The notes under the pieces were generated by a model, which saw only the letters and a list, made by a program, of their open reading frames with translations, had not been told where the DNA came from and made no database searches. A stretch of 64,000 nucleotides of DNA from Nocardia pneumoniae NBRC 100136. Its GTDB lineage: Bacteria > Actinomycetota > Actinomycetes > Mycobacteriales > Mycobacteriaceae. Each line of letters starts with the position of its first letter. Position 1 is the first letter of the stretch. A program made the position numbers and the translations under genes. Positions 1 to 21,163 of this stretch are shown here, piece by piece. The DNA lies in the NCBI RefSeq assembly GCF_000308755.1, contig NZ_BAGF01000084.1, positions 186,001 through 250,000 of the forward strand. Direction: 5' to 3'.

Positions 1-72
1 CCACGCGCGGGCAACAACGGGAACGGCAACGACGCGGGGACGACCGGAACAGCCCCGACCCGCGGCCGGTAG
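1..72 (+). CDS. C-terminal tail of an upstream protein (partial), possibly a class A penicillin-binding protein
   Basis: An open frame runs from the first base to a TAG at 70-72. It encodes 23 residues of Asn/Gly/Thr/Arg-rich low-complexity sequence, which looks like the disordered tail of a longer protein. The next gene starts 11 bases later with a GTG. In mycobacteria the GT87 gene that follows sits directly downstream of ponA1, whose product ends in a disordered tail. Assigning this fragment to a PonA-type penicillin-binding protein therefore rests on gene order alone; no domain is visible. Confidence 0.4.
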   Translation, partial: PRAGNNGNGNDAGTTGTAPTRGR

Positions 73-83
73 CCTCGGGTTCC

Positions 84-1817
84 GTGACCGATCAGCAGCT
101 GGTGGTGCCACGGACGAACGGGAGGCCGCCGCTCTCCGACCGGGCCGGGGCCGGTGGGGCGTACTACGCCGCACCCGCCCCGCTCGCATCGGATCTCCGC
201 TCGGCGGACGCGCGAGACCGGCCGAGCCGCACCGATTCGCTGACCGCCCAGCTGTCCACGGTGATCGGCGGGCCGGTCGGTGATCACGCCCTGATCGGGC
301 GGGTGCGGTTCTGGACGCCGATGCGCGTGCTGCTGGCGTTCGCGGTCGTGTTCCTCGCACTCGGCTGGTTCGGCAAGGCGGGCTGCATTCAGCAGACCAC
401 CGGCGCGGACGGCGACCTGACCCTCGACTGGAACAACGGCCGCCAATACGTGGCCATGTGCTACTCGGACACCGTGCCGCTCTACGGCGCGGAGCGGCTG
501 AACGAGGGCGCCTTCCCGTACAAGAAACATTGGATCGAGCAAACTCCCGACGGCGGCCGGGAGATCCGGTACATGGAATACCCGGTGCTCTCGGGCCTGT
601 ACCAGTATTTCGCGATGCGGATCGCCAAGAGCTGGGACGCCGCGCCGCTGCCCGGCGCGCTGCAAGTGGTGATCTACTTCAACGTCGTCGCGTTCGGGCT
701 GGCGATGGCCTGGCTGGTCACCATCTGGGCGTCGGCGCTGCTGGCCGGTCGCCGGATCTGGGACGCGGCGCTGGTCGCCTGCTCGCCGTTGGTGATCGTG
801 CACGCGTTCACCAATTTCGACGCGCTCGCAACCGCTTTCGCCGCGACCGGCCTGCTCGCCTGGGCCCGGCGCAAACCCGTGCTCGCCGGGATCCTGCTCG
901 GTCTCGGCGGCGCCGCGAAGCTGTATCCGCTGCTGCTGCTCGGACCCATCGTGGTGCTGTGCCTGCGCACCGAGACGATGCAGCGGACCCCGCGCACCCA
1001 CCTCGGCCTGCGACTGCGCGATGTGGACGGCTGGCCGACGTTCCTGGCGTGGGTACGTGAGACGCCCTACCGCATCCAATTCCTCAGCGCCCGCCCGCTC
1101 GGCGCCGCGTCCGTCACGGTGTCGGCGGCACTGGCCACCTGGCTGGCGGTGAATCTGCCGATCGCCGCGCTGTACCCGAACGGATGGCGAGAGTTCTTCC
1201 GGCTGAACACCACCCGGCACGCCGATCCGGACTCGATCTACAACGTGATCTCCTCGTTCACCGGCTGGCCCGGTTTCGACGGCGTACTCGACCACGGGGA
1301 GCAGCCGGTCATCCTGAACGCCGTCTCCCTGCTCGCGTTCGTCGTGGCCTGCGCGGTGATCGGCTATATCGGTCTCACCGCGCCGCGGCGCCCGCGGCTG
1401 GCACAGCTGTGCTTCCTGGTGGTCGCGGCCTTCCTGCTGACGAACAAGGTGTGGAGCCCGCAGTATTCGCTGTGGCTGGTGCCGTTGGCCGTGCTCGCGC
1501 TGCCGCATCGGCGCATCCTGCTGGCCTGGATGACCGTCGACGCACTGGTCTGGGTGCCGCGCATGTTCTACTACCTCGGCCTGGACCGCAAGGGACTGCC
1601 CGAGCAGTGGTTCACCGGCACGGTGCTGCTGCGTGACCTCGCGGTGGTAGGGCTGTGCGCGCTGATCGTGCGCCAGATCTACCGCCCGGAGGAGGACCTG
1701 GTCCGCTTCGACTACGTCGACGACCCGGCCGGTGGCATTGTCGACCGGACGCCGGACCCGCTCTTGCCGTGGCTACCCGAGCCGCTGCGGCCGCGGGTGG
1801 CCGTCGCGCGAGGCTGA
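84..1817 (+). CDS. GT87-family (DUF2029) polytopic mannosyltransferase-like membrane protein
   Basis: A 577-residue protein starting at GTG 84. Residues 1 to about 70 are a polar cytoplasmic tail. The rest is a chain of about ten hydrophobic segments separated by loops, typical of GT-C enzymes that use polyprenyl-phosphate sugars. The first external loop carries CYSD followed by an EYPVLSG motif. A second copy of this signature occurs in the paralogue at 19659-21050. The C-terminal tail after about residue 530 is acidic. Family members in mycobacteria add mannose to cell-envelope glycolipids or have no assigned substrate. The length and position after the presumed PonA tail match the Rv0051 type. 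The exact sugar acceptor cannot be read from the sequence. Confidence 0.8.
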   Translation: MTDQQLVVPRTNGRPPLSDRAGAGGAYYAAPAPLASDLRSADARDRPSRTDSLTAQLSTVIGGPVGDHALIGRVRFWTPMRVLLAFAVVFLALGWFGKAGCIQQTTGADGDLTLDWNNGRQYVAMCYSDTVPLYGAERLNEGAFPYKKHWIEQTPDGGREIRYMEYPVLSGLYQYFAMRIAKSWDAAPLPGALQVVIYFNVVAFGLAMAWLVTIWASALLAGRRIWDAALVACSPLVIVHAFTNFDALATAFAATGLLAWARRKPVLAGILLGLGGAAKLYPLLLLGPIVVLCLRTETMQRTPRTHLGLRLRDVDGWPTFLAWVRETPYRIQFLSARPLGAASVTVSAALATWLAVNLPIAALYPNGWREFFRLNTTRHADPDSIYNVISSFTGWPGFDGVLDHGEQPVILNAVSLLAFVVACAVIGYIGLTAPRRPRLAQLCFLVVAAFLLTNKVWSPQYSLWLVPLAVLALPHRRILLAWMTVDALVWVPRMFYYLGLDRKGLPEQWFTGTVLLRDLAVVGLCALIVRQIYRPEEDLVRFDYVDDPAGGIVDRTPDPLLPWLPEPLRPRVAVARG

Positions 1818-1846
1818 CCGCCCGGCCGATCAGCCTCGTCGAGCGC

Positions 1847-3418
1847 TCACCGGGTGCGCAGGAAGCGCGCCTGCTGCCCCGGCTCCTGCGGCAGCATATC
1901 CAAATCGAGCTGCCACGCACTGCCGGTCCACGGATCGAACAGCGGGGTGCCGCCCACGGTGGGCAGGTGCCTGCACAACTGCGACAGCGACGCCACGGTG
2001 GAGTCGGCGGAATCGGATTCGTTGGCGCCGACGATCACCGTGGACAGACCGATCAAGTCGCCGCGCGCGATCAGCGCACCGATCCGCTGTGCGTCCGAGC
2101 TCTGGTAGCCGTGCGGAAAATCCGCCGCCAGCAGGACCCGATGCTCGCTCGGCGGCGTGAAATCCCCCGTGCTGTAGGCCAATTCGGCCAGCTCGGCGGC
2201 GTCCACCAATGCCTGCAATCGTGCCGAGATGTCGGCGTGGTCGGTGACCGGCGGTCCGTTCAGCACCGGTGCGAGCAGGCCGGTGAAGCCGCTGAACGCG
2301 TCGGTCAGGTCGATGATGTCGACCAGCGCCCGCCGCTGCGGCGCGGTGGCGAGCAGTCGCGCGAGCAGCGCACCCACCACGGGCGCGACCGCGCGGGTCG
2401 ACTCGGTATCGATCCACAGCGGCCGATTCAGCGGCACGGGAACGCAATACGGGATGCGCAGCGGGCCGCGATCGAGCGCGTAGAGCTCGCCGAGCCGGAT
2501 GCCATCGCTCGGCGCGGGCGGCTTGTCCCAGGCGGGCGAATCCCAGGACGCCAGCGCGGGCGGTAGCACCAGGTCGGCTTCGGCGAGTTCGCGCATCAGC
2601 TGTTCGCCGTCGCGCTGATGGTTGTGCTCGGCGGTGGCGATCAGCTCGTCGCTGCGTTGCTGCGCGGCGCGGCGCGCCTCCTCGGCCGCCGGAGTATTCC
2701 TGGTCGCGGGATCGGAAACAGCGAGCGACAGCTCGTGATCCAAGCGCTTGGCCGCGTATTCGCGCGCCGACACCAGCGCGGCGGCCGACCGCGCGGCGTC
2801 CTCGAAGACCATCCACATCCGTTCCAGGCCGTGACCGACTTCCAGCGGCGCGCCGGTGGTCCGCGCATCGCCCGCCAAGGGATCGGCCACGGTATGCGCA
2901 TCCGGCTGTGGGCCTGGAGCAGGCTGTGCGGGCTCACCGTCGACGTCGACGCCGTGCGCGGTGAGCAGCACGGCGAGTCCGCCCGCGTATCCCTGGCCGA
3001 CGGCGCGCAGCTTCCACGCCGAGCCGCGCCGGTATACCTCGAGGCAGATCAGCGCCGTCTCACCCGCCGTCGGTGTTACCGTGAATTCCGCTGTCGCACT
3101 GTCATTCTCGGACAGCGTCGCGGTCACCGGCCCGATCCCGGCGCCGCTCGGCGGGGCGGCTGGGTCGGCACTCGCCACCAGCAACACCGCCTTGGCGTCC
3201 GGACGGACCTCGGCGAGCGTGATCGTCACCCCGTCGGCGGCCAGAGCGACGCCCGCCGCGCTGGGCTGGTTGTAGAAGACGAAATCGTCGCTGGAGAAAA
3301 CCTTCAGGTTCTCGGCGACCACCAGCGCGGAAACATCGAGGGCAGCCTCGGCTTTCGCACTGAAACGAAGGACCTCACCGGTCAGCGGAATGTTCTGACC
3401 GGCCTTCAGTTGAATCAC
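1847..3418 (-). CDS. TerD-domain protein fused to a degenerate FtsK-like module
   Basis: A 523-residue protein with a GTG start. Residues 1-165 are a TerD-superfamily beta-sandwich: an FVFYNQP segment near 46-52, and LEVYRRGSAWKLRAVGQGYA near 126-145, the family's C-terminal signature. A Pro/Asp-rich linker (165-195) leads to a helical stretch (195-290). Residues 305-500 resemble the region that precedes the RecA core in large actinobacterial FtsK/SpoIIIE proteins: VALLARLLAT-type helix, LVDIIDLTDAFSGF, then HRVLLAADFPHGY and an ARGDLIGLSTVIVG strand. The chain ends there, so no Walker A motif is present and the module cannot hydrolyse ATP by itself. It lies 27 bases downstream of the two-domain TerD gene on the same strand, so both are probably one operon. 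TerD proteins bind calcium and act in envelope or phage stress. The FtsK-like assignment is by pattern. Confidence 0.75.
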   Translation of the reverse strand: MIQLKAGQNIPLTGEVLRFSAKAEAALDVSALVVAENLKVFSSDDFVFYNQPSAAGVALAADGVTITLAEVRPDAKAVLLVASADPAAPPSGAGIGPVTATLSENDSATAEFTVTPTAGETALICLEVYRRGSAWKLRAVGQGYAGGLAVLLTAHGVDVDGEPAQPAPGPQPDAHTVADPLAGDARTTGAPLEVGHGLERMWMVFEDAARSAAALVSAREYAAKRLDHELSLAVSDPATRNTPAAEEARRAAQQRSDELIATAEHNHQRDGEQLMRELAEADLVLPPALASWDSPAWDKPPAPSDGIRLGELYALDRGPLRIPYCVPVPLNRPLWIDTESTRAVAPVVGALLARLLATAPQRRALVDIIDLTDAFSGFTGLLAPVLNGPPVTDHADISARLQALVDAAELAELAYSTGDFTPPSEHRVLLAADFPHGYQSSDAQRIGALIARGDLIGLSTVIVGANESDSADSTVASLSQLCRHLPTVGGTPLFDPWTGSAWQLDLDMLPQEPGQQARFLRTR

Positions 3419-3445: not shown

Positions 3446-4840
3446 TCAACCGTTGACGAGGAACCGGCCGAGCTGCGGCACCGCCTCACCCGGATGCTTG
3501 GCCTGGAAGCCCTCGCCGAGCGCCTGCAACTTCCAATCGGCGCCGACCCGGTACAGCTTGGACATCGCCATCGCGGTGAACGGCATGCCGCCCGCCAGGG
3601 TGTACCTGGCCAATTCGCCGTTGTTGGTGCCGTCGACCAAGCGGCAGAACGCATTCTGCACCTGCTCGAACGTGTGGCCCTTGTAGGAGGTCACGATGAA
3701 CAGCAGCGTGGTCACGTGCGGCGGGACGCGGGTCAGGTCGACCAGGATCATCTCGTCGTCGCCTTCGCCCTCGCCGGTGAGGTTGTCGCCCTGGTGGCGG
3801 ATCGAGCCGTCCTTGGAGGTCAGCTGGCCGTAGTAGGCGACGTCCACCGGGTTCATGTCGGCGAACATGATGACCGACGCGTCCAGGTCGATGTCGACCG
3901 TGCGGTTGCCGAACATGCCACGGCTGCGCACCGGATCCCAGCCGAGACCCATCTTGACGAAGGTCAGCGCGGCGCCTTCCTTGCGCAGCGTGACCCGCTG
4001 CCCCTTGACCAGGCTGACCGGCCGGTCCTTGGTCAAGCTCACCTCGCCCGCCGGTTGCTGCGGCTGCTGCGGCGGCGCGGGCTGAGCAGGCGGCGGGTAA
4101 CCCGGACCGGGAGGCGGCGGCGGGTACCCCGGGCCGGGTGGGGGGTAACCCGGACCGCCCTGCGGCGGGTAGCCGGGGCCGGGCGGCGGCGGATACGAAC
4201 CGGACGGCGCGTACTGCGGCGCCTGCTGCTGTGTCGGATATGCCGGGGTGGTCGGCGGCGGGTAGTTGGCGGGCTGCTGCGGAGGTGGCGGCGGGGCCTG
4301 CGCGGGCTGCGGAGCCTGCGCGGGCTGGGCGGGCGCGTCGTCGACGGTGACACCGTGGTCGGTGACCAGCGCGGCGAACCCACCGGCGTAACCCTGCCCC
4401 ACCGCGCGCACCTTCCACGCGCCCTGGCGCCGGTAGAGCTCGAGCGCGATCACGATCGACTCGGTGTTCAGGCCGTCGATCTGATACTCGTACAAGCGAT
4501 TACCCGTCCCATCCGACACGATCGCGGTCGGCGGAGCGAACTGTCCGAAGTTGCTGTTCGCGTCGTCCAGCGTGATCACCGCACGGATCTGGTCGATGTC
4601 GGCGGGCACCGCGTTCAACGACACCGCCAGCGACGCCGGCTGTCCGGCGGGGGCGGGCTGCAAATTCACGCCGGGGCCGGTCGGCTGGTTGAAGAAGACG
4701 AAGTCGGCGTCGGAACGGACCTTGCCCCGCTCGGTCACCAGTAGTGCCGACAGATCCGCCGGCGCCGTGAGCTGGATGGAAATCACCACGTCATTGGTGG
4801 CCAGCGGACCGTTCTGGCCCTTGGCGAGTGTTGCGGACAA
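3446..4840 (-). CDS. Two-domain TerD protein with a Pro/Gly/Tyr-rich linker
   Basis: I place the start at TTG 4838-4840, giving MSATLAKGQNGPL, the usual opening of the family, with AAGGG (4847-4851) six bases upstream. A longer reading frame to 4900 exists but lacks support. The product has 464 residues. Residues 1-165 form a first TerD domain ending in LELYRRQGAWKVRAVGQGYA and lacking the acidic calcium motifs. Residues 167-265 are a linker with four GPGYPP-type repeats. Residues 266-464 are a canonical TerD domain with VDIDLDAS and GDNLTGEGEGDDE, the calcium-binding segments known in the family. It is divergently transcribed from the AIM24 genes (127-base gap) and is probably the first gene of the operon that continues into the TerD-FtsK-like gene. 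Confidence 0.85.
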   Translation of the reverse strand: MSATLAKGQNGPLATNDVVISIQLTAPADLSALLVTERGKVRSDADFVFFNQPTGPGVNLQPAPAGQPASLAVSLNAVPADIDQIRAVITLDDANSNFGQFAPPTAIVSDGTGNRLYEYQIDGLNTESIVIALELYRRQGAWKVRAVGQGYAGGFAALVTDHGVTVDDAPAQPAQAPQPAQAPPPPPQQPANYPPPTTPAYPTQQQAPQYAPSGSYPPPPGPGYPPQGGPGYPPPGPGYPPPPPGPGYPPPAQPAPPQQPQQPAGEVSLTKDRPVSLVKGQRVTLRKEGAALTFVKMGLGWDPVRSRGMFGNRTVDIDLDASVIMFADMNPVDVAYYGQLTSKDGSIRHQGDNLTGEGEGDDEMILVDLTRVPPHVTTLLFIVTSYKGHTFEQVQNAFCRLVDGTNNGELARYTLAGGMPFTAMAMSKLYRVGADWKLQALGEGFQAKHPGEAVPQLGRFLVNG

Positions 4841-4967
4841 GTTCGACCCTTCGCTTGTCGGTGCGTACGCCTGACACTCTACGAGAAACGCGCTCGGCAC
4901 CGCTCGTACTGAACGGCCGCGCTACCCCGACACGCGTTGGCACATCGGTTAGGGTGACGGCACGCAG

Positions 4968-5645
4968 ATGGAATACGGCAACTACACCGTGTTCCCGATC
5001 CAGACAGCAGGCAAACACTCCATGGCGCAACTGTTCGAGCAATCGAAGAAGGTGATCGAGGCACACCTCGCCGGAACCAGCCTGCGGGCGATTTCCGGCT
5101 CGATGATCGCCTACGAAGGAAATGTGCAGTTCAAGTCGGCCGGTTTCGGTGGGGGCGACGGCGTGCTCGCCGGGCTCAAGCGGCGGGCGACCGGCGAGAA
5201 GCTCTCGCTGATGGAGTGCTCCGGCAACGGCCGGGTTTTCTTCGCGGTCAACGGCCAGCATGTCACCGTGGTCGACGTGAACAACGAGACGCTGCAAGTG
5301 GAGTCGCAACAACTGCTCGCCTTCGCCGGAAACCTGCGCACCGACGTGCGTTTCGCCGGTGTGCGCGGCGCGTCCACCGGTCAGGGCCTGTTCACCACCA
5401 CCGTCTCCGGACAGGGGCAGGTCGCATTGCTCTCGGCGGGCGGGCCGCTCATTCACCTCGAGGTATCGCCGCAGTATCCGCTGGTGGTGGACCCTGACGC
5501 GTTCGTCGCCGCGCGCGGCAACCTCAACCAGTCGTTCGTCACCGACGTGTCCTGGCGCAGTTTCGTCGGCCAGGACGCCGGCGAAGCGTTCTCGCTGCGC
5601 TGGGATGGGCATGGCGTGGTGTCGATCCAGCCCGCGGAACGGTAG
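4968..5645 (+). CDS. AIM24 family protein, copy 1
   Basis: A 225-residue protein, ATG at 4968. It is all-beta with repeated turns and carries the AIM24/DUF124 pattern: FFAVNGQHVTVVDVNNETLQVES, LLAFAGNLRTDVRF, GQGLFTTTVSGQGQVALLS, and the closing VDPDAFVAARGNL and LRWDGHGVVSIQP. The fold is the TRAP-like double beta-helix family. Bacterial members form oligomers and are repeatedly found beside TerD genes, but their biochemical job is unknown. It is the first of three adjacent paralogues (8-base and 2-base gaps), which must be one transcript. A 127-base divergent promoter region separates it from the two-domain TerD gene. Confidence 0.85.
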   Translation: MEYGNYTVFPIQTAGKHSMAQLFEQSKKVIEAHLAGTSLRAISGSMIAYEGNVQFKSAGFGGGDGVLAGLKRRATGEKLSLMECSGNGRVFFAVNGQHVTVVDVNNETLQVESQQLLAFAGNLRTDVRFAGVRGASTGQGLFTTTVSGQGQVALLSAGGPLIHLEVSPQYPLVVDPDAFVAARGNLNQSFVTDVSWRSFVGQDAGEAFSLRWDGHGVVSIQPAER

Positions 5646-5653
5646 GGGCAGCG

Positions 5654-6352
5654 ATGTTCGAGAAAGTCAACGGCAAGGTCGTCAAGGTCGACGTCGGAAT
5701 GGCGGGCGGCGTGGTCGCCCGCAACGGCGCGATGCTGTTCTACACCGGCGACGTTTCCTTTGCGCCGCATGCCATTCCGGGTGGTCAGGGGATGGGCGGC
5801 ATGGGTGGCGTCATGGGGCTGGCCGGACGCATGATGGCGGGCGAGCACGAGCGCACCATGCTGGCGCAGGGCACCGGCGAGGTGCATTACGGGTTCGCGG
5901 GCCTGGAAGTGCAGGTGGTGCACATGCAGCCGGGCGCGACACTGCGCGTCGAGGCTTCGCGACTGCTGGCCAACACCGCCGGGTTGCAGAGTTCGGTGGT
6001 GTCGGTGATGAGTTCGAGCGGCGGAGGCGGTGGCGGCGGCCTGATGGGCGCGCTGCGCGGCGCCGCGTCGGGTGCGTTGACCGGTCAAGGCATGTTCACC
6101 ACCCAGTTGTCCGGGCACGGCGCTGCGGTGTTGCTCGCGCACGGCGGATTCCTGGAACTGCAAGTGGGCGGTCCGCATCCGATCGTGGTCGACCCGCAGG
6201 CGTTCGTCGCCGCCTACGGCAACGTGCAGACCGAGCTGAAGACGGCGCTGAGCTGGCGGGACGCGGTCGGCCGCGGTTCCGGCGAGGCGATGCAGTTGCA
6301 CTGCGTCGGGCAGGGCGTCGTCTATGTGCAGGCCTCCGAAGAGAAGTTGTGA
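5654..6352 (+). CDS. AIM24 family protein, copy 2
   Basis: A 232-residue protein, ATG at 5654, with AGGGG just upstream. Same family as its neighbours: VQVVHMQPGATLRVEASRLLA, GQGMFTTQLSGHGAAVLLA, VDPQAFVAAYGNVQTELK and a final LHCVGQGVVYVQ. It differs by two glycine-rich insertions: a GGQGMGGMGGVMG stretch near residues 41-55 and an SSSGGGGGGGLMG stretch near 117-129. These probably form flexible loops. It overlaps nothing but is closely spaced on both sides, so co-translation with copies 1 and 3 is likely. Function is unknown beyond the family association with tellurite/stress loci. Confidence 0.85.
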   Translation: MFEKVNGKVVKVDVGMAGGVVARNGAMLFYTGDVSFAPHAIPGGQGMGGMGGVMGLAGRMMAGEHERTMLAQGTGEVHYGFAGLEVQVVHMQPGATLRVEASRLLANTAGLQSSVVSVMSSSGGGGGGGLMGALRGAASGALTGQGMFTTQLSGHGAAVLLAHGGFLELQVGGPHPIVVDPQAFVAAYGNVQTELKTALSWRDAVGRGSGEAMQLHCVGQGVVYVQASEEKL

Positions 6353-6354
6353 GC

Positions 6355-7119
6355 ATGTCCCAGATCCTCAATCCCATGAATCTCGGTGAGAGCGACAACA
6401 TCCCGGGAAACAACTACGCCTACTGCATCGACCTGAACAAGCCGTGGTTCATGCGCAAGGGCGCGATGATCGCCTACTACGGCGACATGCGGTTCCAGAT
6501 GCTCACGCACGGTCTGCACGGCGGTCTGCTGCACATGGTGTCGCAGCAGTTCTCCGCGCCGCTGTTCACCGGCGACTATGTCGTCGCGGAGGGGCACGGC
6601 AAGCTGATCATCGGCGACCGCGGCTACGACATCAATTCCTATGACCTGGAGGACAACGGCAACCTGACCATCCGGGCGGCGAACCTGCTGGCGTTCGAGC
6701 CGGGTCTGTCGCTGAACCAGTCCATCGTGCCGGGGTTCCTCACCCTCATCGGCACCGGCAAGTTCCTCGCCTCGTCCAACGGACCGGTCATATTCGCCGA
6801 GCCGCCGCTGCGGGTGGATCCTGAATCGCTGGTGGGGTGGGCGGATTGCCCCTCGCCGAGTCACCACTACGACCAGCGGTGGGTCACCGACTTCCTGGCC
6901 GCGGGCGCGGCGGCCTTCGGCGTCAACTCCGGTGAGGAGCGCCAATTCGACTTCACGGGCGCGGGAACCGTGCTGATCCAGTCCAGCGAGAAGGTGCTCA
7001 GCGACTCGATGCTGGTGCGCACCATCGAAGGACAGCTCCAGAGCGGCATCACCGTCGGCGGCCTGCAACGGCTGCAAGGTGTGATCGCACAGCAGCTGGC
7101 GGGTCAGCAGCAGTACTGA
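6355..7119 (+). CDS. AIM24 family protein, copy 3
   Basis: I take ATG 6355 as the start, giving 254 residues; an in-frame GTG at 6349 that overlaps the previous stop (GTGA) is a plausible alternative. The frame is open far upstream, but that sequence is out-of-frame with copies 1 and 2 and is not coding. AIM24 features: WFMRKGAMIAYYGDMRFQ, FSAPLFTGDYVVAEGHGKLIIGDRG, LAFEPGLSLNQSI, VDPESLVGW, FDFTGAGTVLIQSS. A C-terminal extension of about 40 residues (IEGQLQSGITVGGLQRLQGV) is helical and Gln-rich, absent from copies 1 and 2. It closes the three-gene AIM24 transcript. Confidence 0.85.
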   Translation: MSQILNPMNLGESDNIPGNNYAYCIDLNKPWFMRKGAMIAYYGDMRFQMLTHGLHGGLLHMVSQQFSAPLFTGDYVVAEGHGKLIIGDRGYDINSYDLEDNGNLTIRAANLLAFEPGLSLNQSIVPGFLTLIGTGKFLASSNGPVIFAEPPLRVDPESLVGWADCPSPSHHYDQRWVTDFLAAGAAAFGVNSGEERQFDFTGAGTVLIQSSEKVLSDSMLVRTIEGQLQSGITVGGLQRLQGVIAQQLAGQQQY

Positions 7120-11058: not shown

Positions 11059-11913
11059 TTATGCGTCACAGTGGTCAGGGGCCGCTTTGATGAACCAGTT
11101 GATGATTTCCTCGCCCGCGAGGATGCCTTCGGCGCGGGTGACGGTGAGGTTGGGGTGGGTCCAGTTGAGTTGTTCCAGTTCGCCGTGGCGGGGGCGGATG
11201 GCGGAGTCGGCGGCGCGGAGCATTTCGGCGTCGAGGGCGCCGTCGCCCGCGGCCAGGGTCCTCGCGTCATCGGCGAGTTCGCCGCTTTCCCAGAGGCGTT
11301 TGCGGACTTCGTCGACCGCGCGGCTCTTGCAGACGGCGAGCGGCATGGTGTAGATCTTGCGGCCCTGCTGGGACGCCGACCAGCCACGGGGACGGCACCA
11401 GGCGTCCCATTCGGCGAGGAATTCTTCGGGCACGGCCTTCGGTTTCACCACCAGATAGCAGAACAGGTGGTCGGCCACCCGGAATTTGGTCACCCATGAA
11501 TCATCGATGCGGGCGTGCAGTTCCCTGGTCACCTCCGACAGGGTGGCGCCGCCCGCGCGCACCTTGGCGTCGATGTCGATGCGCCAGCTCAGGTCGGGCA
11601 CACCGTCGACCAGAATGTTCCCCCCATTGCTGGTGATCGCGTATCGCCACGGCGCCCCGGGTAGTCGGATGCGCCCGAACTGCTTGATGGTGCGGGTGGT
11701 GGTGGGAATGACGGCGGCGGGTTGGGTGAGGGACTGCATCCGCAGCGCCGCGGTTGTGGTCATGAACGACAGCGGAGCGCCTTCCAGATGCTCCACACAG
11801 ACCGTGGCCACGTCGGCTGTGGTGCTGAAGGCGTTACGCGAGTAGATCATCGTCCGGTCCAGGTCGGTCGCGATCAGCGCACGTCTTCGCTGCGCTCTCC
11901 GAGATAGGTTCAC
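11059..11913 (-). CDS. HAD-family phosphatase of the Ter biosynthetic module
   Basis: A 284-residue protein. I place the start at GTG 11911-11913, whose G is the last base of the upstream TAG stop, so the genes overlap by one base; the longer frame to 12051 lies inside the StiP gene. HAD motifs: DLDRT (motif I, nucleophile Asp) at residues 16-20, TSNGG in the substrate-cap region, a Lys/Arg-rich helix, and AAGDGALDAEM (motif IV). A large cap between motifs points to the Cof/sucrose-phosphatase subclass. In Ter loci this enzyme is proposed to dephosphorylate the nucleotide-like product of the two phosphoribosyltransferases encoded upstream. It is the last gene of the operon. Confidence 0.85.
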   Translation of the reverse strand: MNLSRRAQRRRALIATDLDRTMIYSRNAFSTTADVATVCVEHLEGAPLSFMTTTAALRMQSLTQPAAVIPTTTRTIKQFGRIRLPGAPWRYAITSNGGNILVDGVPDLSWRIDIDAKVRAGGATLSEVTRELHARIDDSWVTKFRVADHLFCYLVVKPKAVPEEFLAEWDAWCRPRGWSASQQGRKIYTMPLAVCKSRAVDEVRKRLWESGELADDARTLAAGDGALDAEMLRAADSAIRPRHGELEQLNWTHPNLTVTRAEGILAGEEIINWFIKAAPDHCDA

Positions 11914-13049
11914 TACTGCACGTCCTTGATCAGTCCCATACACGAATATGCCAGGTCGTCGACGACTTCCACGGGAACCCCGCGTGCGGCGGCGAGCAAC
12001 CGGATATGCGCGTGCTCTGGCGCGTCCGCCTCGCGGACCAGCACCCGCCACGGGACGCGCCGCAACAGCACCCGGGTGGTCTCGCCGACGCCGGGCTTCA
12101 CGAAGTTGACGCTGCCGATGCCGTACCGCTCCCTGACCTTCTCCACCGACGCCCAGCCGGTCCAGGTGGGCGTGCGGTCGCTCGCGCGGATCGCGGCCAC
12201 CTCGGCCGCCACCCGATCGCGGACCGCGTCGAAGGCGCCGCTCACGGTGTCCAGCAGCCGTCCGGACACATCGTCACCGGCCAGCTCCCGGTAGAACTTG
12301 GCGCCGTGGAAATCGCCAGGGCCGATCAGCGTGTCGTTCAGCACGGTGCGCGAGATCAGACCGGACACCGTCGAATTCAGGCAGGCCGAGGCGATCAGGA
12401 AGTCGTCGCGGGTGCCGTAGGTGCGCACGCAGTGCCCCGGATCGGCCAGCACCGCCAGCTCGTCGTTGAACCGTGCACCCCCGGCCGCACGGTAGGCGTC
12501 CAGCGCCTCGGTCAGCTCGCGGGTGATCGCCCCCTTGCCGGTCCATCCGTCCACGAACACGACGGAGTCCGGGTCGTGGTGCTCGGCCAGGTAGTCCAGC
12601 GCCACCGCATCGATGCCGCGATCCCGCACGATGGACACCGCGTAGTGCGGCGCCGCGAGGGTCGGCCGCCGCGCACGCAGCCAGCGGCGCATCAGGATGC
12701 CGACCGGCGTGCCCGCCCGGGCCAGCGACACCAGCACGATATCCTCGCCGCGTTCGGCGACGACCAGTTCCGACACGGTCGCGACGGCGAGCGCCAGCCG
12801 CTCGGCGCTGGCCGTGAGCACTTCGTCGAACAGCGCCCGGTATCGCGCGTCCGGTTGGTATTCGATCGGCAGCGATTCCGCGTAATGCGCCCGCCCGGCT
12901 TGGATCTTCCGTTCCCGCTCGGCGACGTCGCGCTCCAGATCGACGTCGGACAGGTCCTTGAGCAACCAGGAAACCTCGTCCGCCGCGTAGGAGCCGAACT
13001 CCGGACCGTGCAGCGGAAAGGGCAACGCAGCCACCCTCGTGCTCGTCAT
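11913..13049 (-). CDS. StiP-family phosphoribosyltransferase-like protein with C-terminal PELOTA domain
   Basis: A 378-residue protein with an ATG that overlaps the previous stop (ATGA, 13046-13049). Residues 60-280 match the Ter-associated PRTase_1/StiP family: VLVSLARAGTPVGILMRRWL, HYAVSIVRDRGID and a PRPP-loop-like VVFVDGWTGKGAITREL near 165-181. Cys residues at CVRTYG and ACLNSTVSGL fit the alternative protease annotation of this family. Residues 290-378 match the PELOTA RNA-binding domain that is fused to it elsewhere (VNFVKPGVGETTRVLLRR, AHIRLLAAARGVPVEVVDDLAYSCMG). Family studies disagree on whether it is a transferase or a cysteine protease; the PRPP-like loop and operon context favour the former. 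Confidence 0.85.
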   Translation of the reverse strand: MTSTRVAALPFPLHGPEFGSYAADEVSWLLKDLSDVDLERDVAERERKIQAGRAHYAESLPIEYQPDARYRALFDEVLTASAERLALAVATVSELVVAERGEDIVLVSLARAGTPVGILMRRWLRARRPTLAAPHYAVSIVRDRGIDAVALDYLAEHHDPDSVVFVDGWTGKGAITRELTEALDAYRAAGGARFNDELAVLADPGHCVRTYGTRDDFLIASACLNSTVSGLISRTVLNDTLIGPGDFHGAKFYRELAGDDVSGRLLDTVSGAFDAVRDRVAAEVAAIRASDRTPTWTGWASVEKVRERYGIGSVNFVKPGVGETTRVLLRRVPWRVLVREADAPEHAHIRLLAAARGVPVEVVDDLAYSCMGLIKDVQ

Positions 13050-14515
13050 AGCCGACTCGCCTTCGGTGACTCGGCGCGTTCCGCGTGGAGTAGCCGCGGG
13101 TCGGCTTCCCGCAGCACCGCGAGCAGCACGTCGGCGCCGGAAGCGGTCAGCACATCGATCAACCCGCCGTCGGCCCGCAGCTGTGCGGTGTCGGCGGGCG
13201 AGTCGACCACGACGACGAGCACCGGATCGGACGCGGGAGCGTCGCCTTCCGCGCCGCTGTCGACGCCGTCATCGGTGATCGTGACGTCCTCGCCGCGCCC
13301 CGAAGCCGCGCTCGCGACCAGTTCTCCGAGCCCGGCCATATCCGCCTCGAAAAGGTCCAGCGAATCACCGGGCCAGTGCGCGTTGTACAGGTAGCGCGGC
13401 GCGGTGTCTCCCGGTTCCGGCGCGACGAACCGGAACCCGCGTCGCAAGGGATATCCCGGTTCGTCCAGCACATACGCGGGCGATCGCGTGGTGGTTTGGA
13501 AGCGCGTGGGCCTACCGGCTTCGGCGAGCAGCGCCGCCAGCCGCAGCGGGAGATACATCAGCTCCTCGTGACCGAGCACGATCGCGGGCCGACCAGCGAA
13601 ATCAGTGTCGAGCCGCGCGGTCAGCACCTCGGCCGCGGTCAGGAGCGCCTCTTCGAACGCTTCGGTTTCCGAGGCGAGTATCCCGTGCCTGCCGCCCTCC
13701 GGCACCGAAGCAGGCCAGGGCAGTTCCATCCGCCGGAACGAGCCGGGACGACCGGCGGTCGGGTTGAGCCGGGGCTCGGGGAGGGCGCCGACCGCGTCGA
13801 CCAGTCCGTCCGGCAGCGTCGCGCGGCCGGTGGCGAGACAGACCGTGTCGATGCGCGCACCGAGTTCTGCCGCGGCCGCGTCGAATTCGGCGCGGTCGGC
13901 CCCGCCGCGCAGGTCGACCAGCGACGCCAGCACGTAGTGCGCCCGCGGCGAGAAGGCGTGCAGCGCGCGCACCGCGTCGATCGCCGTTGCTCCGGTGGAG
14001 ATTTCGTCGTCGACCAGCACCAGCGGCAGGTCGTTGACGAAGATGTCGGCGGGCGCCGGTTGCAGCAGATGCGAGGTCGCGTGCGAATGTCCCTCCTCGA
14101 ACCCGGCGAGCGTCCGCGCGTGCGGCACCTCGCGCCGGGTCGAGTGGAGATAGCAGCTCGCGCCGATCCGCGCCGCCACGCAGTGGCCGAGTCCGGTCGC
14201 GGTCTCGGCGAACCCGAGTACCACCGCTTCGCGCTCGCCGAGCACCTCGCGCACCAGATCACCCAGGCGGTCACCCGCCCCGAGCACCACCCGAGGATCG
14301 GTCGGGAGATGCTTGCCGAGCACGGTGGACACCAGCAGGTGCGCCCGGCGCGGATTGTTGTGGCGGACCCCCGGCTGGATCAGCGCGGTGATCGGCAGCC
14401 GGACCGAGCGGAGGCGGTCCGCGTCACGCTCGGCATCGTGATGCAGTTCGATACCGAGAAACCTTGTCGCCCAGGGTATTTCGTTGTGTCCGAACTCGAT
14501 AGCCGTCTGGCTCAT
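13046..14515 (-). CDS. Phosphoribosyltransferase (PRTase_2/TRSP type) of the Ter module
   Basis: A 489-residue protein starting at ATG 14515, which overlaps the stop of the upstream lyase gene (ATGA). The PRPP-binding loop is clear: LVLVDDEISTGATAIDAV near residues 185-202, preceded by the flexible-loop region HSTRREVP. The C-terminal half (about 300-489) matches the TRSP extension found only in this family: LGHEELMYLPLRLAALL, FQTTTRSPAYVLDEPGYPLRRG, and APRYLYNAHWPGD. It contributes a second phosphoribosyl transfer step to the Ter-linked pathway. An extension of the frame to 14932 is an artefact of overlap with the lyase gene. Its own stop overlaps the StiP start, so the whole set is translationally coupled. 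Confidence 0.88.
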   Translation of the reverse strand: MSQTAIEFGHNEIPWATRFLGIELHHDAERDADRLRSVRLPITALIQPGVRHNNPRRAHLLVSTVLGKHLPTDPRVVLGAGDRLGDLVREVLGEREAVVLGFAETATGLGHCVAARIGASCYLHSTRREVPHARTLAGFEEGHSHATSHLLQPAPADIFVNDLPLVLVDDEISTGATAIDAVRALHAFSPRAHYVLASLVDLRGGADRAEFDAAAAELGARIDTVCLATGRATLPDGLVDAVGALPEPRLNPTAGRPGSFRRMELPWPASVPEGGRHGILASETEAFEEALLTAAEVLTARLDTDFAGRPAIVLGHEELMYLPLRLAALLAEAGRPTRFQTTTRSPAYVLDEPGYPLRRGFRFVAPEPGDTAPRYLYNAHWPGDSLDLFEADMAGLGELVASAASGRGEDVTITDDGVDSGAEGDAPASDPVLVVVVDSPADTAQLRADGGLIDVLTASGADVLLAVLREADPRLLHAERAESPKASRL

Positions 14516-15726
14516 ACGGTGACCAACGCCGTCAATAGATCCACGAACGACACTCCCTTGTTCGCGACGCCGAACACCCTGGCGCGCAACAGCGTCTGCC
14601 GCGCCCAACTGCGATGCGGCCGCATCTCGTTCATCTTGTTCCGGTAGCCCGAGGCGGCTACGCCACCGACATCGGCACGCAGAATGTCCAGCGCGTCCGA
14701 GTACTCCTCGTGCGTGACCACCGACAACGCGTGCACCGCGGCCACATGCGACGGATGGATCACCGTCTTGCCCTGAATGCCGTTGGCGCGGTCCAACGTG
14801 ATCTCCCGCAGAAGTCCGTCCAGATCCCGGCTGACCAGGTACTGCCGGAACGGCACGGCATCGGACTCCTCGAACGGCGCGGTGCGCAGCAGCGGCCGGA
14901 ACATCCGCTCGTGGTCGGCGAAGTACTCCCACACCGGCCCGGTGATCACGAAACCCGTTCCGTCCGCGCGCCCCAGATAGTTCACGATGTCGGCGATGAC
15001 GTCGGCGACCACCCGCACGTCGTAGATGGTCAGGTCACGATCGCGCCGGATGCCGAAGGTCGAGCACATGTCCGTCGCGCCGACCCGCACCGCCAGCACC
15101 CGGTCCCGATGCGCGGCCAGCAGCGCCGCGATCTGCGTGAGCTCGTAGTCGCGGGTCTCCCGGTGCACCAGGCACGGCGACTCCAGCACCGGCATCCCGT
15201 ACAGCGGCCGGTCCACCCGCTGGGCGGCCACGTTCAGTGCGTTGAGGTACTTCGGTCCGGAAACGCTGTCGAACTTCGGGAACACGAACCCGGTCAGCGT
15301 CCGCGCCCCAGGGCCGAGCTGCTCGACGATCTCGGTGATCGTGTCCGCGTCCCGCACCCGCACGAACAGCAGCGGGTTGGCGTCGTGGCTGGCCGCCAGC
15401 AGATCGAGCGCGGCGACGGTCTGCTGTTTGGCGTACTCCACCTCGTCGTCGGCGACCGCGTCCTCGAGATCGATCACCATCGAACAAACCCCGCGCTCGG
15501 CCCGCTTACTGATCGTCAGCGCGAGATCGGGCCTGGTCGCGGGCGCGTACAGCGTCGCACCGAGCCCGAACGCGAGTAATTCCCGGTCCGTGCGGTCGCT
15601 GGCGAACGGTTCGGGCTGCCGGTGAAAAAGACGCCTCGCCTCTGGGCCGTGCAACTGCCGGAAGTGGCGCAGCGGCATTCGCTTCCGCAGGGAAACCTCC
15701 TGCTGGACGGCGATGCCTGCGGTCAT
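14512..15726 (-). CDS. HpcH/HpaI-CitE-like C-C bond lyase of the Ter module
   Basis: A 404-residue protein, ATG at 15726. It has the TIM-barrel citrate-lyase-beta pattern: LYAPATRPDLALTISKRAERG, CSMVIDLEDAVADDEVEYAK (acidic residues that bind the divalent metal, near 84-95), LFVRVRDADTI, GFVFPKFDSVSGP, RVGATDMCSTFGIRRDRDLTIYD and GIQGKTVIHPSHV. It is longer than ordinary CitE by about 100 residues, as expected for the C-C_Bond_Lyase family restricted to tellurium-resistance-type operons. It probably makes or cleaves a carboxylated intermediate for the downstream phosphoribosyltransferases. It sits 13 bases after the helical-protein gene and overlaps the next gene by four bases. Confidence 0.85.
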   Translation of the reverse strand: MTAGIAVQQEVSLRKRMPLRHFRQLHGPEARRLFHRQPEPFASDRTDRELLAFGLGATLYAPATRPDLALTISKRAERGVCSMVIDLEDAVADDEVEYAKQQTVAALDLLAASHDANPLLFVRVRDADTITEIVEQLGPGARTLTGFVFPKFDSVSGPKYLNALNVAAQRVDRPLYGMPVLESPCLVHRETRDYELTQIAALLAAHRDRVLAVRVGATDMCSTFGIRRDRDLTIYDVRVVADVIADIVNYLGRADGTGFVITGPVWEYFADHERMFRPLLRTAPFEESDAVPFRQYLVSRDLDGLLREITLDRANGIQGKTVIHPSHVAAVHALSVVTHEEYSDALDILRADVGGVAASGYRNKMNEMRPHRSWARQTLLRARVFGVANKGVSFVDLLTALVTV

Positions 15727-17099: not shown

Positions 17100-17675
17100 A
17101 TGGGTGTCAGTTTGTCCAAGGGCGGCAATGTCTCGCTGACCAAGGCGGCGCCTAACCTGACCGCTGTTTCGGTCGGCCTGGGGTGGGATGTGCGGACCAC
17201 CACCGGCACCGACTTCGACCTCGACGCGAGCGCCATCGCGACCGGCGCGGACAAGAAGGTCGTGTCCGATCAGCACTTCGTCTTCTTCAACAACCTGCGT
17301 TCCCCCGAAGGCACCATCGAGCACGCGGGTGACAACCGCACCGGCGAGGGCGAGGGCGACGACGAGGTCATCAACGTCGACCTGGCGAACACCCCGCCCA
17401 GCATCGAGAGCATCTTCTTCCCGGTCTCCATCTACGACGCCGATTCCCGCTCCCAGTCGTTCGGCCAGGTCCGCAACGCCTACATTCGCGTCGTCGACCG
17501 CAGCAACGGCGAGGAACTCGCCCGCTACGACCTCACCGAGGACGCGTCGACCGAAACCGCCATGATCTTCGGCGAGCTGTACCGCAACGGCGCGGAGTGG
17601 AAGTTCCGGGCGATCGGCCAGGGCTACGCCTCCGGCCTGGCCGGCATCGCCCGCGACTACGGCGTTAACGTCTAA
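17100..17675 (+). CDS. terD: TerD family calcium-binding stress protein
   Basis: A 191-residue protein of standard TerD length. ATG 17100 is preceded by AAAGGGA (17086-17092). It opens with MGVSLSKGGNVSLTK and carries both acidic calcium-binding segments: DFDLDASA near residues 38-45 and GDNRTGEGEGDDEV near 79-92. The closing GELYRNGAEWKFRAIGQGYASGL and RDYGVNV are family signatures. No changes to the ligand residues are apparent. TerD proteins are cytoplasmic or membrane-associated and support resistance to tellurite, oxidative stress, pore-forming colicins and phage in other bacteria. It is divergent from the Ter biosynthetic operon and is followed by a strong hairpin terminator. Confidence 0.95.
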   Translation: MGVSLSKGGNVSLTKAAPNLTAVSVGLGWDVRTTTGTDFDLDASAIATGADKKVVSDQHFVFFNNLRSPEGTIEHAGDNRTGEGEGDDEVINVDLANTPPSIESIFFPVSIYDADSRSQSFGQVRNAYIRVVDRSNGEELARYDLTEDASTETAMIFGELYRNGAEWKFRAIGQGYASGLAGIARDYGVNV

Positions 17676-17837: not shown

Positions 17838-18938
17838 GTGGTCCTGCGCATATTCGGCATGTCCCTCGTCGTCACGGTGCTCTCGCTCGTGGTGGCGCTC
17901 GTGTACGGCGGCCCGACCGCCCTGGCACTCGCCGCGATCCTCGGCATCCTCGAGGTTTCGCTGTCGTTCGACAATGCCGTGATCAACGCCACCGTCCTCG
18001 AACGAATGAGCGCGTTCTGGCAAAGGATCTTCCTCACCATCGGCGTGCTGATCGCCGTCTTCGGCATGCGCCTGGTCTTCCCGCTGGCGATCGTCTGGAT
18101 CACCGCGGGCCTGAACCCGGTCCAGGCGTTCGACCTGGCGCTCAACCCGCCACCGAACGACGCGCTGACCTTCCCGGACGGCAGCCCCAGCTACGAGAAG
18201 CTGCTCACCGACGCGCACCCGCAGATCGCGGCGTTCGGCGGCATGTTCCTGGCGCTGCTGTTCCTCAACTTCATCTTCGAGGAGCGCGAGATCACCTGGC
18301 TGGGCTGGCTGGAGCGGCCGCTGGCCAGAGCGGGCAAGCTCGACATGCTCTCGGTGGTGGTCGCCGGTATCGGCCTGATCCTGACCGCGGAGTTCATCGC
18401 GACCGAGCACGAGCGCGCCACCGTCCTGGCCGCCGGCCTGCTCGGCATGGTCACCTACATCGCGGTCGACGGGCTCGGTTCGATGTTCCACACCGAGGAG
18501 CTGGAGCACAGCGGTCCGTCCGAACTGGCCAAGGCCACCGGTAAAGCGGGCTTCTTCCTGTTCCTGTACCTGGAGGTGCTGGACGCGTCGTTCTCCTTCG
18601 ACGGCGTGATCGGCGCGTTCGCCATCACCTCCGACCCGATCATCATCGCGCTGGGCCTCGGCCTGATCGGCGCCATGTTCGTCCGGTCGATCACGGTGTA
18701 CCTGGTGCGCAAGGGCACCCTCTCGGAATACGTCTACCTGGAGCACGGCGCGCACTGGGCAATCGGCGCGCTGGCGGTGATCCTGCTCGTCTCGATCGGC
18801 GTGCACATCAACGAGATCGTCACCGGTCTGATCGGTGTCGCGTTCATCGGCGCGGCCTTCCTCAGCAGCATCATCCGCAACGGCCGCGAGGACGAGGAAG
18901 AACTCGACAGCGAACGGGAACCCACGCCGGTAGGCTGA
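17838..18938 (+). CDS. DUF475/TerC-like integral membrane protein
   Basis: A 366-residue protein starting at GTG 17838, with GAAAGG eight bases upstream. It has about nine membrane segments. The paired acidic motifs of the TerC/DUF475 family are present: LEVSLSFDNAVIN near residues 39-51 and EVLDASFSFDGVIGAF near 248-263, which form a symmetrical metal-binding site in the membrane. Between them is a hydrophilic loop with FEEREITWLGW. The C-terminus is a short acidic tail. TerC-type proteins work with TerD in metal and envelope stress and have been linked to manganese export. A hairpin terminator follows directly, so it is probably a single-gene transcript. Confidence 0.9.
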   Translation: MVLRIFGMSLVVTVLSLVVALVYGGPTALALAAILGILEVSLSFDNAVINATVLERMSAFWQRIFLTIGVLIAVFGMRLVFPLAIVWITAGLNPVQAFDLALNPPPNDALTFPDGSPSYEKLLTDAHPQIAAFGGMFLALLFLNFIFEEREITWLGWLERPLARAGKLDMLSVVVAGIGLILTAEFIATEHERATVLAAGLLGMVTYIAVDGLGSMFHTEELEHSGPSELAKATGKAGFFLFLYLEVLDASFSFDGVIGAFAITSDPIIIALGLGLIGAMFVRSITVYLVRKGTLSEYVYLEHGAHWAIGALAVILLVSIGVHINEIVTGLIGVAFIGAAFLSSIIRNGREDEEELDSEREPTPVG

Positions 18939-19658: not shown

Positions 19659-21050
19659 CTAGGGCACCGGAACGAGATCACGCGGGTCGGACCGCGGCGT
19701 CGACCGCGACACTGATCGGTACCCGCGCGGCAGCGCCCACAGGAACACGAAGAACAACACCACCAGCAGGCTCGCGCGTCCCCACACCCCGAATTGGACG
19801 ATGTTCTCCATCAGCTCGACCGAGGTGCCCGAACCCATCGAGTAGAAGTAACGGAACACCCCGATACCGATGGCCGCGTCGGCGAGGAGGTAGCCTCCGA
19901 TCAGCCACCACGGCACCTCGAGCAGCACCAGGAACGGCACCAGCCACAAGGTGTACTGCGGCGAATGCACCTTGTGGAACAGCAGGAAGCCACACAGCAT
20001 CGCACCGCTGACGCCGACCCACGGGAACACGCCGGTACTCAGGTACCGCTTCCAGCCGAGCCACATGGCCAGCGCGAACGCCACGAGCACCAGCGCGGGC
20101 GAGACGACCGAGACCAGCTCCTGGAACGCGGCCTCGCCGCGCGCGTCCGGACCGAACATCGGCCGAAGTCCCCAGTACCAGATCGAATTCGTGGTGATGT
20201 CGGCCTGACGGAGCTGCTGGAACGTGATCGATGCCCGCCAGCCCTCGTAACCCGTCAACGCGAACGGCAGGTTGACCGCGACGACGGTTCCGATGGCCGC
20301 GGCCGCGGTGAGCAGCGCACCGCGCACGTCCACACCGCGATCGCGCTCGTCGGCGTCGCGTTCCACGCCGCCGGTCAGCACATATGCCACCAGCGGCAGC
20401 ACGAAGATCCCCGGGTACAGCTTGAGGCAGAACCCGAGCCCGAGTAACACGGCTGCCGCGATGCCCCTGGTGCGCACGGAAAAGCGGGTCAGCGTCGTCA
20501 CCACGTAGACGGCCGCAACGGCCATGCACACAACGGGGAGTTCCCAGTTGTGGAAGGCATAGAGCACCAGCGGCGGACCGGCCGCCCACAGCAGAGCCGC
20601 ACCCCCGGCCAATCGGGCCAACATCCACGCGGTGAGCAGCGCGAAGGGCGCGAGCAGCAGGGCGGAGTTGCGCAGGAACTCCGCGTCGTTGTCCGCGCCG
20701 ACCGCACCGAGCCACATCAGTACGCCGCTGAGCACCGGATACTCCACTGCCCCGCCGACCAGCGCGCCGTCATCGGTGATGCCGCCGGACACGTAGGGAA
20801 AGACGTGCTCGTTGATATCCCTGCCGAGCCAGAGGAATTGGATATCCGAGTAGCAGACGTCCGAATCCTTGATGACGTCGAACACCGCGCTGCGACCGTC
20901 CCCGTTGAACGGGTCCCCCGCACAGCGCGCCTTGTTCGCATACGCCAAGGCGAGGGTGAGGCCGCACAGCAGCACGACCACCGCGGCCAGCGCCGCAGGG
21001 CGTCGCACACGGCCTGCGGGCAGGTCGCGGGCGGCGAGTCCGGTCGGCAT
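19659..21050 (-). CDS. GT87-family membrane glycosyltransferase, second paralogue
   Basis: I start at ATG 21050 (MPTGLAARDL), giving 463 residues; an ATG at 21122 in the same frame would add 24 residues and run into the rpsF control region. Ten or so membrane segments are present. The external loop contains VCYSD and later EYPVLSG, the same signature as the protein at 84-1817, and HKVHSPQYTLWLVP parallels NKVWSPQYSLWLVP there. Both are therefore paralogues of one GT-C family that uses lipid-linked sugar. It is divergent from rpsF. One of the two presumably corresponds to the single mycobacterial Rv0051-type gene. Confidence 0.8.
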   Translation of the reverse strand: MPTGLAARDLPAGRVRRPAALAAVVVLLCGLTLALAYANKARCAGDPFNGDGRSAVFDVIKDSDVCYSDIQFLWLGRDINEHVFPYVSGGITDDGALVGGAVEYPVLSGVLMWLGAVGADNDAEFLRNSALLLAPFALLTAWMLARLAGGAALLWAAGPPLVLYAFHNWELPVVCMAVAAVYVVTTLTRFSVRTRGIAAAVLLGLGFCLKLYPGIFVLPLVAYVLTGGVERDADERDRGVDVRGALLTAAAAIGTVVAVNLPFALTGYEGWRASITFQQLRQADITTNSIWYWGLRPMFGPDARGEAAFQELVSVVSPALVLVAFALAMWLGWKRYLSTGVFPWVGVSGAMLCGFLLFHKVHSPQYTLWLVPFLVLLEVPWWLIGGYLLADAAIGIGVFRYFYSMGSGTSVELMENIVQFGVWGRASLLVVLFFVFLWALPRGYRSVSRSTPRSDPRDLVPVP

Positions 21051-21163
21051 GACCACCACCCTAAGCGGGCCCGCCCGACCATGCCGGTGTACCCCGAGGA
21101 ACTGATCGATTTCGCTGCTCAACGGCCGCTCATGTAGCCTTGTCGGGTTGCTGACGCAACGAC

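Follow-up and report, generated by a model that had tools for sequence, protein, structure and literature searches.

A TerD domain joined to a predicted FtsK-type RecA core without a P-loop in Nocardia pneumoniae and other actinobacteria

Although Ter proteins occur widely, how they act is still unsettled. Within the TerD family (PF02342), represented by the structures from K. pneumoniae (2kxt/2kxv) and S. coelicolor (3ibz), the acidic loop binds calcium, and the structure title of 2kxt mentions calcium-binding properties of TerD. The Ter enzymes reportedly make a nucleoside-like metabolite, according to the title of a 2012 Ter review as it stands in a reference list. Among the FtsK-related motors, EccC carries degenerate ATPase domains next to active ones on a single chain, and the DUF domain of EccC5 is degenerate. 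Inactive FtsK domains are also predicted in NTP-dependent conflict systems, in the available portions of PMC7159879, where they constitute a module as in the protein described here; in those portions, however, the inactive FtsK is the effector domain of other systems, and no TerD-FtsK fusion is present.

The window, i.e. the whole stretch of 64,000 nucleotides of Nocardia pneumoniae NBRC 100136 that was analysed (contig NZ_BAGF01000084.1, positions 186,001 to 250,000), contains a single coding frame in the interval 1847-3418. The frame lies on the minus strand, running from a GTG start at 3418 to a stop codon at 1847-1849, and encodes 523 aa, while the plus-strand frame of the same interval is interrupted by a stop according to the frame check. 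The order of the encoded parts is TerD, helical hairpin and FtsK-like putative pseudo-ATPase, all on the minus strand. Residues 1-158 (2945..3418) adopt a TerD fold but lack its acidic calcium loop, as indicated by Pfam, VIA and the loop pattern, and are followed by a Pro/Ala/Gly-rich linker of low confidence at residues 159-191 (2846..2944; pLDDT below 50 at 161-194). In the AlphaFold model, residues 192-285 (2564..2845) form a long hairpin of two helices (192-234 and 243-283), and residues 286-523 (1850..2563) are predicted, on the basis of models, Foldseek, VIA and hhalign, to be a catalytically degenerate RecA core of the FtsK/EssC type. Within this core, the expected P-loop site was placed at residues 334-343 (2390..2419) by DSSP of the model and alignment, and the strand at the Walker B position at residues 425-435 (2114..2146) by the alignment rows. 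Purifying selection acts on the C-terminal domain, for which four pairs gave dN/dS values of 0.11, 0.12, 0.13 and 0.26.

The TerD half matched PF02342 at residues 21-154 with an E-value of 1.1e-19 (bit score 71.1, curated cut-off 25.3), and the N-terminal half of the model was aligned by VIA with TerD 3ibz at Z 19.2 (145 aligned residues, rmsd 2.4). A TerD fold in the N-terminal third had been proposed in an earlier note on this DNA and was confirmed here, for residues 1-158. The domain is alike to the TerD family in fold and sequence, but it has neither the acidic loop nor the DxDxS motif, and the protein has 365 extra residues. The strict loop pattern GDNxTGxGxGDDE was found in none of 64 unique Nocardia proteins, which were drawn from 81 loci with a full-length match, and the DxDxS motif was likewise absent from the first 60 residues of all 64. 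The strict pattern missed partner genes with an insert in the loop in genomes of g45, a large genus (see below), and a relaxed pattern was used for a mixed set of 18 neighbourhoods, i.e. the window, four Nocardia regions and 13 regions from other genomes of several families. By this relaxed pattern, none of the 18 fused copies had the loop, and all 19 further TerD proteins called around them did. The designation of a calcium-binding stress domain in the earlier note is therefore unsupported for this copy. As a separate observation, the FVFYNQ segment of the TerD domain was retained in only 30 of the 64 unique Nocardia copies, and for this reason the domain appears to be drifting in some lineages. 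The best structure match of the TerD half was 9a6r_B, which is an integrative model of another protein pair.

For the C-terminal part, no Pfam family, PF01580 included, was matched at E-values up to 1, and NCBIfam produced two stray weak matches (E-values 0.089 and 0.19), each in one of 19 members. The last 227 residues returned no match from the PDB by phmmer, and a profile search of the PDB gave two TerD sequences and the non-significant 3bb9 (E-value 0.49). PADLOC had no match for the 523-aa protein, its neighbour or a g45 copy. Profile A2, made from the last 345 residues and searched in 394 genomes of the class, matched 51 of these. The strong matches were orthologs, and weaker matches were obtained in seven genomes of the family f32, with E-values of 3.2e-11 to 5.3e-4 per genome, of which the best remain significant and the weakest does not when corrected for 394 genomes. 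Six f32 copies (L139-L144) were fetched from five of these seven genomes; each of the six had a Walker A motif about 300 residues downstream of the A2 match, and PF01580 was identified in all four copies tested by Pfam.

When 48 rows of the family were aligned by hhalign with seven regions, i.e. those preceding the ATPase in the six FtsK proteins together with L145, which has no ATPase, a score of 134 was obtained (E-value 7.8e-19, probability 99.1, 171 columns), against at most 23.8 in 20 column shuffles and 18.4 for reversed columns. This comparison is a refinement rather than a fully independent test, because it was with A2 that the regions had been selected. With the hairpin included for two of the FtsK sequences, 218 columns were aligned with a score of 122, and the alignment reached the second helix. 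In the reverse direction, profile A5 matched the 523-aa gene at an E-value of 3.1e-9, and 120 of the 394 class genomes, TerD-fused copies and some marginal partial matches included. The likeness to the large FtsK/SpoIIIE proteins thus amounts to profile-level homology over 171 columns, and to the hairpin end in two sequences, whereas those proteins continue to an active domain with Walker A and the 523-aa protein stops there and carries TerD in front. Compared with the active FtsK ATPase itself, the hhalign score was 26.8 with a probability of 4.5% (20 shuffles at most 17.2, reversed 15.0), which is only suggestive.

Two further observations were made on these regions. The N-terminal half of the large f32 FtsK proteins was blank in Pfam in the four copies tested, and it is homologous to the putative dead RecA core. 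L145 (3028-5256, minus strand), a 743-aa protein from the g45 genome G272 and a further weak A2 match, carries the FtsK pre-ATPase module, with neither TerD nor PF01580 by Pfam, and its C terminus has a weak PADLOC match to PDC-M14B.

Modelling of the full protein by AlphaFold2 together with 41 Nocardia sequences gave a pLDDT of 81.3 and a pTM of 0.56, and because of the latter value the mutual arrangement of the domains is not fixed by the model, which consists of TerD, the low-confidence linker (161-194), the hairpin (192-283) and an alpha/beta domain from residue 307. With this model, Foldseek retrieved TerD structures and the EssC D3 domain 6tv1 (3.7e-7), and VIA aligned model residues 291-523 with the FtsK motor 6t8b at Z 14.4 (211 residues, rmsd 3.9). 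When the C-terminal domain was modelled alone (pLDDT 79.6, pTM 0.79), Foldseek returned 6tv1 at 1.4e-7, and VIA gave Z 14.7 for 6t8b (215 residues, rmsd 4.2), 12-14 for EssC, EccC and TcpA (EssC 5fv0 Z 14.0), and 9-10 for other RecA-fold proteins. The EccC5 DUF domain 8rin, at Z 9.9 (202 aligned residues, rmsd 4.6), equals this general RecA level.

The C-terminal half is predicted to be a RecA core of the FtsK/EssC/EccC type without a P-loop, an assignment that rests on the models because hhalign finds little similarity to the active FtsK ATPase. The RecA fold would be common to this protein and the EssC/EccC ATPase domains (6tv1, 4nh0), and may extend to the DUF domain of EccC5 (8rin), whereas the 523-aa protein has one core only, with no second or third ATPase domain. 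Through homology, the module in front of the active ATPase of the FtsK proteins L139-L144 would itself be an FtsK-type core.

The residues expected of an active core are missing. Walker A was found in none of the 64 unique full-length Nocardia proteins and in none of 47 unique C-terminal rows, and the relaxed pattern [AG]xxxxGK occurred in one of the 64, located inside the hairpin. By DSSP and alignment, the strand at 334-337 (LWID) passes into the helix 342-357 with no GxxxxGK[ST] between them. At the Walker B position, Asp433 is present in 46 of 48 rows and the next residue is Phe in 45 of 48, which indicates at the sequence level that the Walker B Asp is kept and the catalytic Glu is lost. 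The motifs DFPHG and DPW (DPW...W) are conserved on the putative dead core.

The results agree with several points of the earlier note, in which the last 200 residues had been assigned to the region preceding the ATPase of FtsK proteins. The motifs named there, VDIIDLTDAFSGF, HRVLLAADFPHGY and LSTVIVG, are all present in the translation; the match to the pre-ATPase region is beyond chance, with an HMM-HMM comparison of the kind proposed in the note being significant (E-value 7.8e-19; score 134, the highest of 20 shuffles being 23.8); and structure prediction of the protein alone gave an FtsK-type fold rather than an unrelated one. The lack of a Walker A motif holds across the 64 unique Nocardia proteins, and an absence of pumping is consistent with the catalytic residues missing from the C-terminal core. 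The statement that the FtsK-like module lacks the ATPase core was wrong, as the predicted fold is that of an FtsK-type RecA core (Z 14.7 with 6t8b); since the P-loop is missing from this predicted core, the protein would be a pseudo-ATPase and not a piece ending before the core.

In the window, a TerD-TerD partner gene of 484 aa (3446..4900, minus strand; Pfam 4e-78 in two stretches) lies upstream, 27 bases from the 523-aa gene, and its second TerD domain has the calcium loop. Divergent from this TerD pair are AIM24 genes on the plus strand at 4968..5645 (Pfam 3.8e-35) and 5654..6352 (Pfam 3.1e-26); a third AIM24-like gene on the same strand, at approximately 6355-7119, was read by eye. Genes of the Ter enzyme set were identified by Pfam on the minus strand, i.e. 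StiP-PELOTA (11913..13049), PRTase_2-TRSP (13046..14932, the true start probably lying further in) and a C-C bond lyase of the HpcH/HpaI-like type (14512..15726; Pfam 3e-122), and are followed on the plus strand by a classical TerD of 191 aa (17100..17672; Pfam 1.5e-83) and a TerC-like membrane protein (DUF475/TerC, by Pfam; 17838..18935). The StiP gene is on the same strand as the 523-aa gene at a distance of 8.5 kb, with other genes between them. The Ter region is flanked by similar-looking polytopic genes of glycosyltransferase type, at 84-1817 (plus strand), which matches GT87, and at 19659-21122 (minus strand), which was read by eye.

TerD is a modular domain, being fused in the same genome also to vWA, AIM24, exonuclease-BRCT and HNH. 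Two such fusions were noted in particular: an Exonuclease (RNase_T)-BRCT-TerD protein in frame 1-1932 of L005 (region G000:C113:83869), and a TerD-DUF2510 protein with a C-terminal HNH nuclease in frame 4-2475, minus strand, of L006 (region G000:C126:129319).

In total, 65 loci were found with the last 347 residues, all labelled Nocardia by a tool that reaches close relatives only, and the gene was preceded in all 65 by a TerD ORF on the same strand, with a gap of about 6-375 bases (median about 27). In 19 of these loci, the local matches of the preceding ORF span both TerD domains. TerD also precedes the gene in all of the 18 mixed neighbourhoods, 17 by gene calling and one (L152) by reading frame. 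Among genomes of the genus of the window, the 523-aa gene was matched in 21 of 36, its own included, and among others of the order in one of 24. One of the 15 same-genus genomes without a match (G014) has the gene cut by a contig end, and one of the 21 with the gene (G007) has a second match. The TerD-TerD gene was present without the 523-aa gene in three of three genomes (G001, G010 and G018), which had been chosen for their good TerD-TerD matches, and in five others without the 523-aa gene (G002, G005, G009, G011, G021) no close TerD-TerD match was found by sequence search.

Homologs occur in several families with 34-41% identity, and four records of a plasmid collection were matched, against three when a more distant query was used. 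The gene order is HpcH-PRTase-StiP-ORF-TerD-homolog on the Mycolicibacterium alvei plasmid, where a DUF4236 gene follows the homolog on the same strand, and PRTase-StiP-HAD-VWA-TerD-homolog on the Prescottella equi plasmid. On both plasmids the homolog, annotated as "TerD family protein", is the last Ter gene of the operon. The gene is linked to the Ter operon (StiP, PRTase, lyase, TerD, TerC).

In the g45 genomes, the C-terminal module was found in 94 of 101. In six of six g45 neighbourhoods, the homolog is located between UvrB (then TerD) and TerC clusters, with Pfam identities taken from L151, and 27 g45 loci were fetched; TerD precedes the module in frame in 26 of them, and the remaining one begins at a contig edge. 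Excerpts of the respective papers identify SCO1966 as excinuclease subunit B (PMC3897704) and SCO1963 as an integral membrane export protein (PMC3087709); SCO1965 is entered under tellurium resistance proteins in one paper (PMC7244524) and named "export associated protein", not tellurium resistance protein, in another (PMC3293853). Since these annotations fit the gene order, g45 appears to be Streptomyces, and the S. coelicolor ortholog would by the same order be SCO1964, which receives no mention in the papers found for the tags SCO1963-SCO1966.

The reading preferred here, with a probability of about 0.5, is that the 523-aa protein serves the Ter stress system of actinobacteria as a pseudo-ATPase scaffold. 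Its observed anatomy consists of a TerD domain without the loop, a hairpin and a predicted dead core, encoded directly 3' of a TerD gene. The protein would work with the calcium-loop TerD from the preceding gene: the TerD half would dock on TerD arrays, so joining the dead core to TerD with the loop, the hairpin would be a spacer, and the dead RecA core, by homology, would form or cap a ring through the oligomerisation surfaces of the motors. The number and geometry of TerD units might thereby be fixed at a membrane complex with TerC, with no DNA or protein being moved. In favour of the scaffold are the FtsK/EssC fold scores above those of other RecA-fold proteins, the loss of catalytic residues and the purifying selection, together with the constant TerD in front, the Ter operon context and the presence in 94/101 g45 genomes. 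Against it, the ring is argued from homology and the RecA fold rests on models; TerD-TerD occurs without the 523-aa gene (3/3 genomes) and 15 of 36 genus genomes are without a match; and the homolog is followed by the DUF4236 gene in M. alvei. Asp433 and DPW...W could moreover belong to a binding site, for which a protein that acts only as a scaffold would have no use.

This last point is shared by another, rather improbable reading, in which the degenerate NTPase pocket would be a receptor for the product of StiP, PRTase and the lyase and would report to the TerD complex. The sensor is favoured by the conserved Asp433, DFPHG and DPW on the dead core and by the operon linkage with these enzymes in two other genera, and in PMC7159879 it is considered that TerD itself may bind specialised nucleotides. 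However, the g45 neighbours are UvrB and TerC rather than Ter enzymes, and the P-loop is absent, so that binding would require a new mode. Similarly doubtful is the adaptor view of the earlier note, here taken to mean that the dead core docks on or mixes into the hexamer of an active motor of the FtsK or EccC type and couples this motor to TerD. The homology to FtsK, the predicted fold match to EssC/EccC and the precedent of EccC, in which degenerate domains accompany active ones (EccC5 DUF domain 8rin at Z 9.9), speak for such an adaptor, as do the 13 PF01580 matches of the genome, several of them in frames of 893 to 1712 aa. None of the 13 is on the contig of the window, though, and the active FtsK profile over 274 genes of the 18 neighbourhoods gave marginal matches only (E-values 3e-4 to 6e-4). 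These came from a single family of genes of some 1000 aa at four loci, perhaps UvrA, when a true FtsK reaches an E-value of 1e-164. Profile A5, searched in the 7.6-Mb genome of 151 contigs, matched the 523-aa gene alone and no FtsK with the module, an absence which is not absolute because the scoring covered 52 of 104 first-look candidates. With no FtsK carrying a matching module detected in the genome, a homotypic FtsK adaptor is unsupported. The single second match among the 21 same-genus genomes with the gene also speaks against the adaptor.

A decaying fusion from a domain accident, with a C-terminal part without function, would agree with the lost catalytic residues and with the lack of a match in 15 of 36 genus genomes, but the selection on the C-terminal domain (dN/dS 0.11-0.26) already contradicts it, and the module in 94/101 g45 genomes and the homologs of 34-41% identity in several families likewise make this reading very improbable. 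Returning to the scaffold, a more specific form of it is speculative and itself unlikely, namely that a nucleotide-free FtsK-type ring is a fixed scaffold which templates TerD assembly, is kept in nearly all apparent Streptomyces genomes, and is perhaps tied to DNA repair through the uvrB position.

TerD modularity and predicted inactive FtsK domains are individually known; their joining, and the interpretation of the pre-ATPase module as a core that is dead, are apparently new. Neither was found in the open-access literature covered by the search, and an earlier depiction of the TerD-FtsK fusion in the 2012 Ter review or the 2004 FtsK-HerA paper is possible. Papers pairing TerD with FtsK concerned, by title and abstract, mostly replication-terminus sites. 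For the FtsK family, the results suggest that many actinobacterial members have a second RecA core, a dead one, in front of the ATPase. For the Ter system, the combination of a dead FtsK-type core with TerD, extending across several families, hints that a RecA-like ring may be the base on which Ter complexes are assembled, or may control them.
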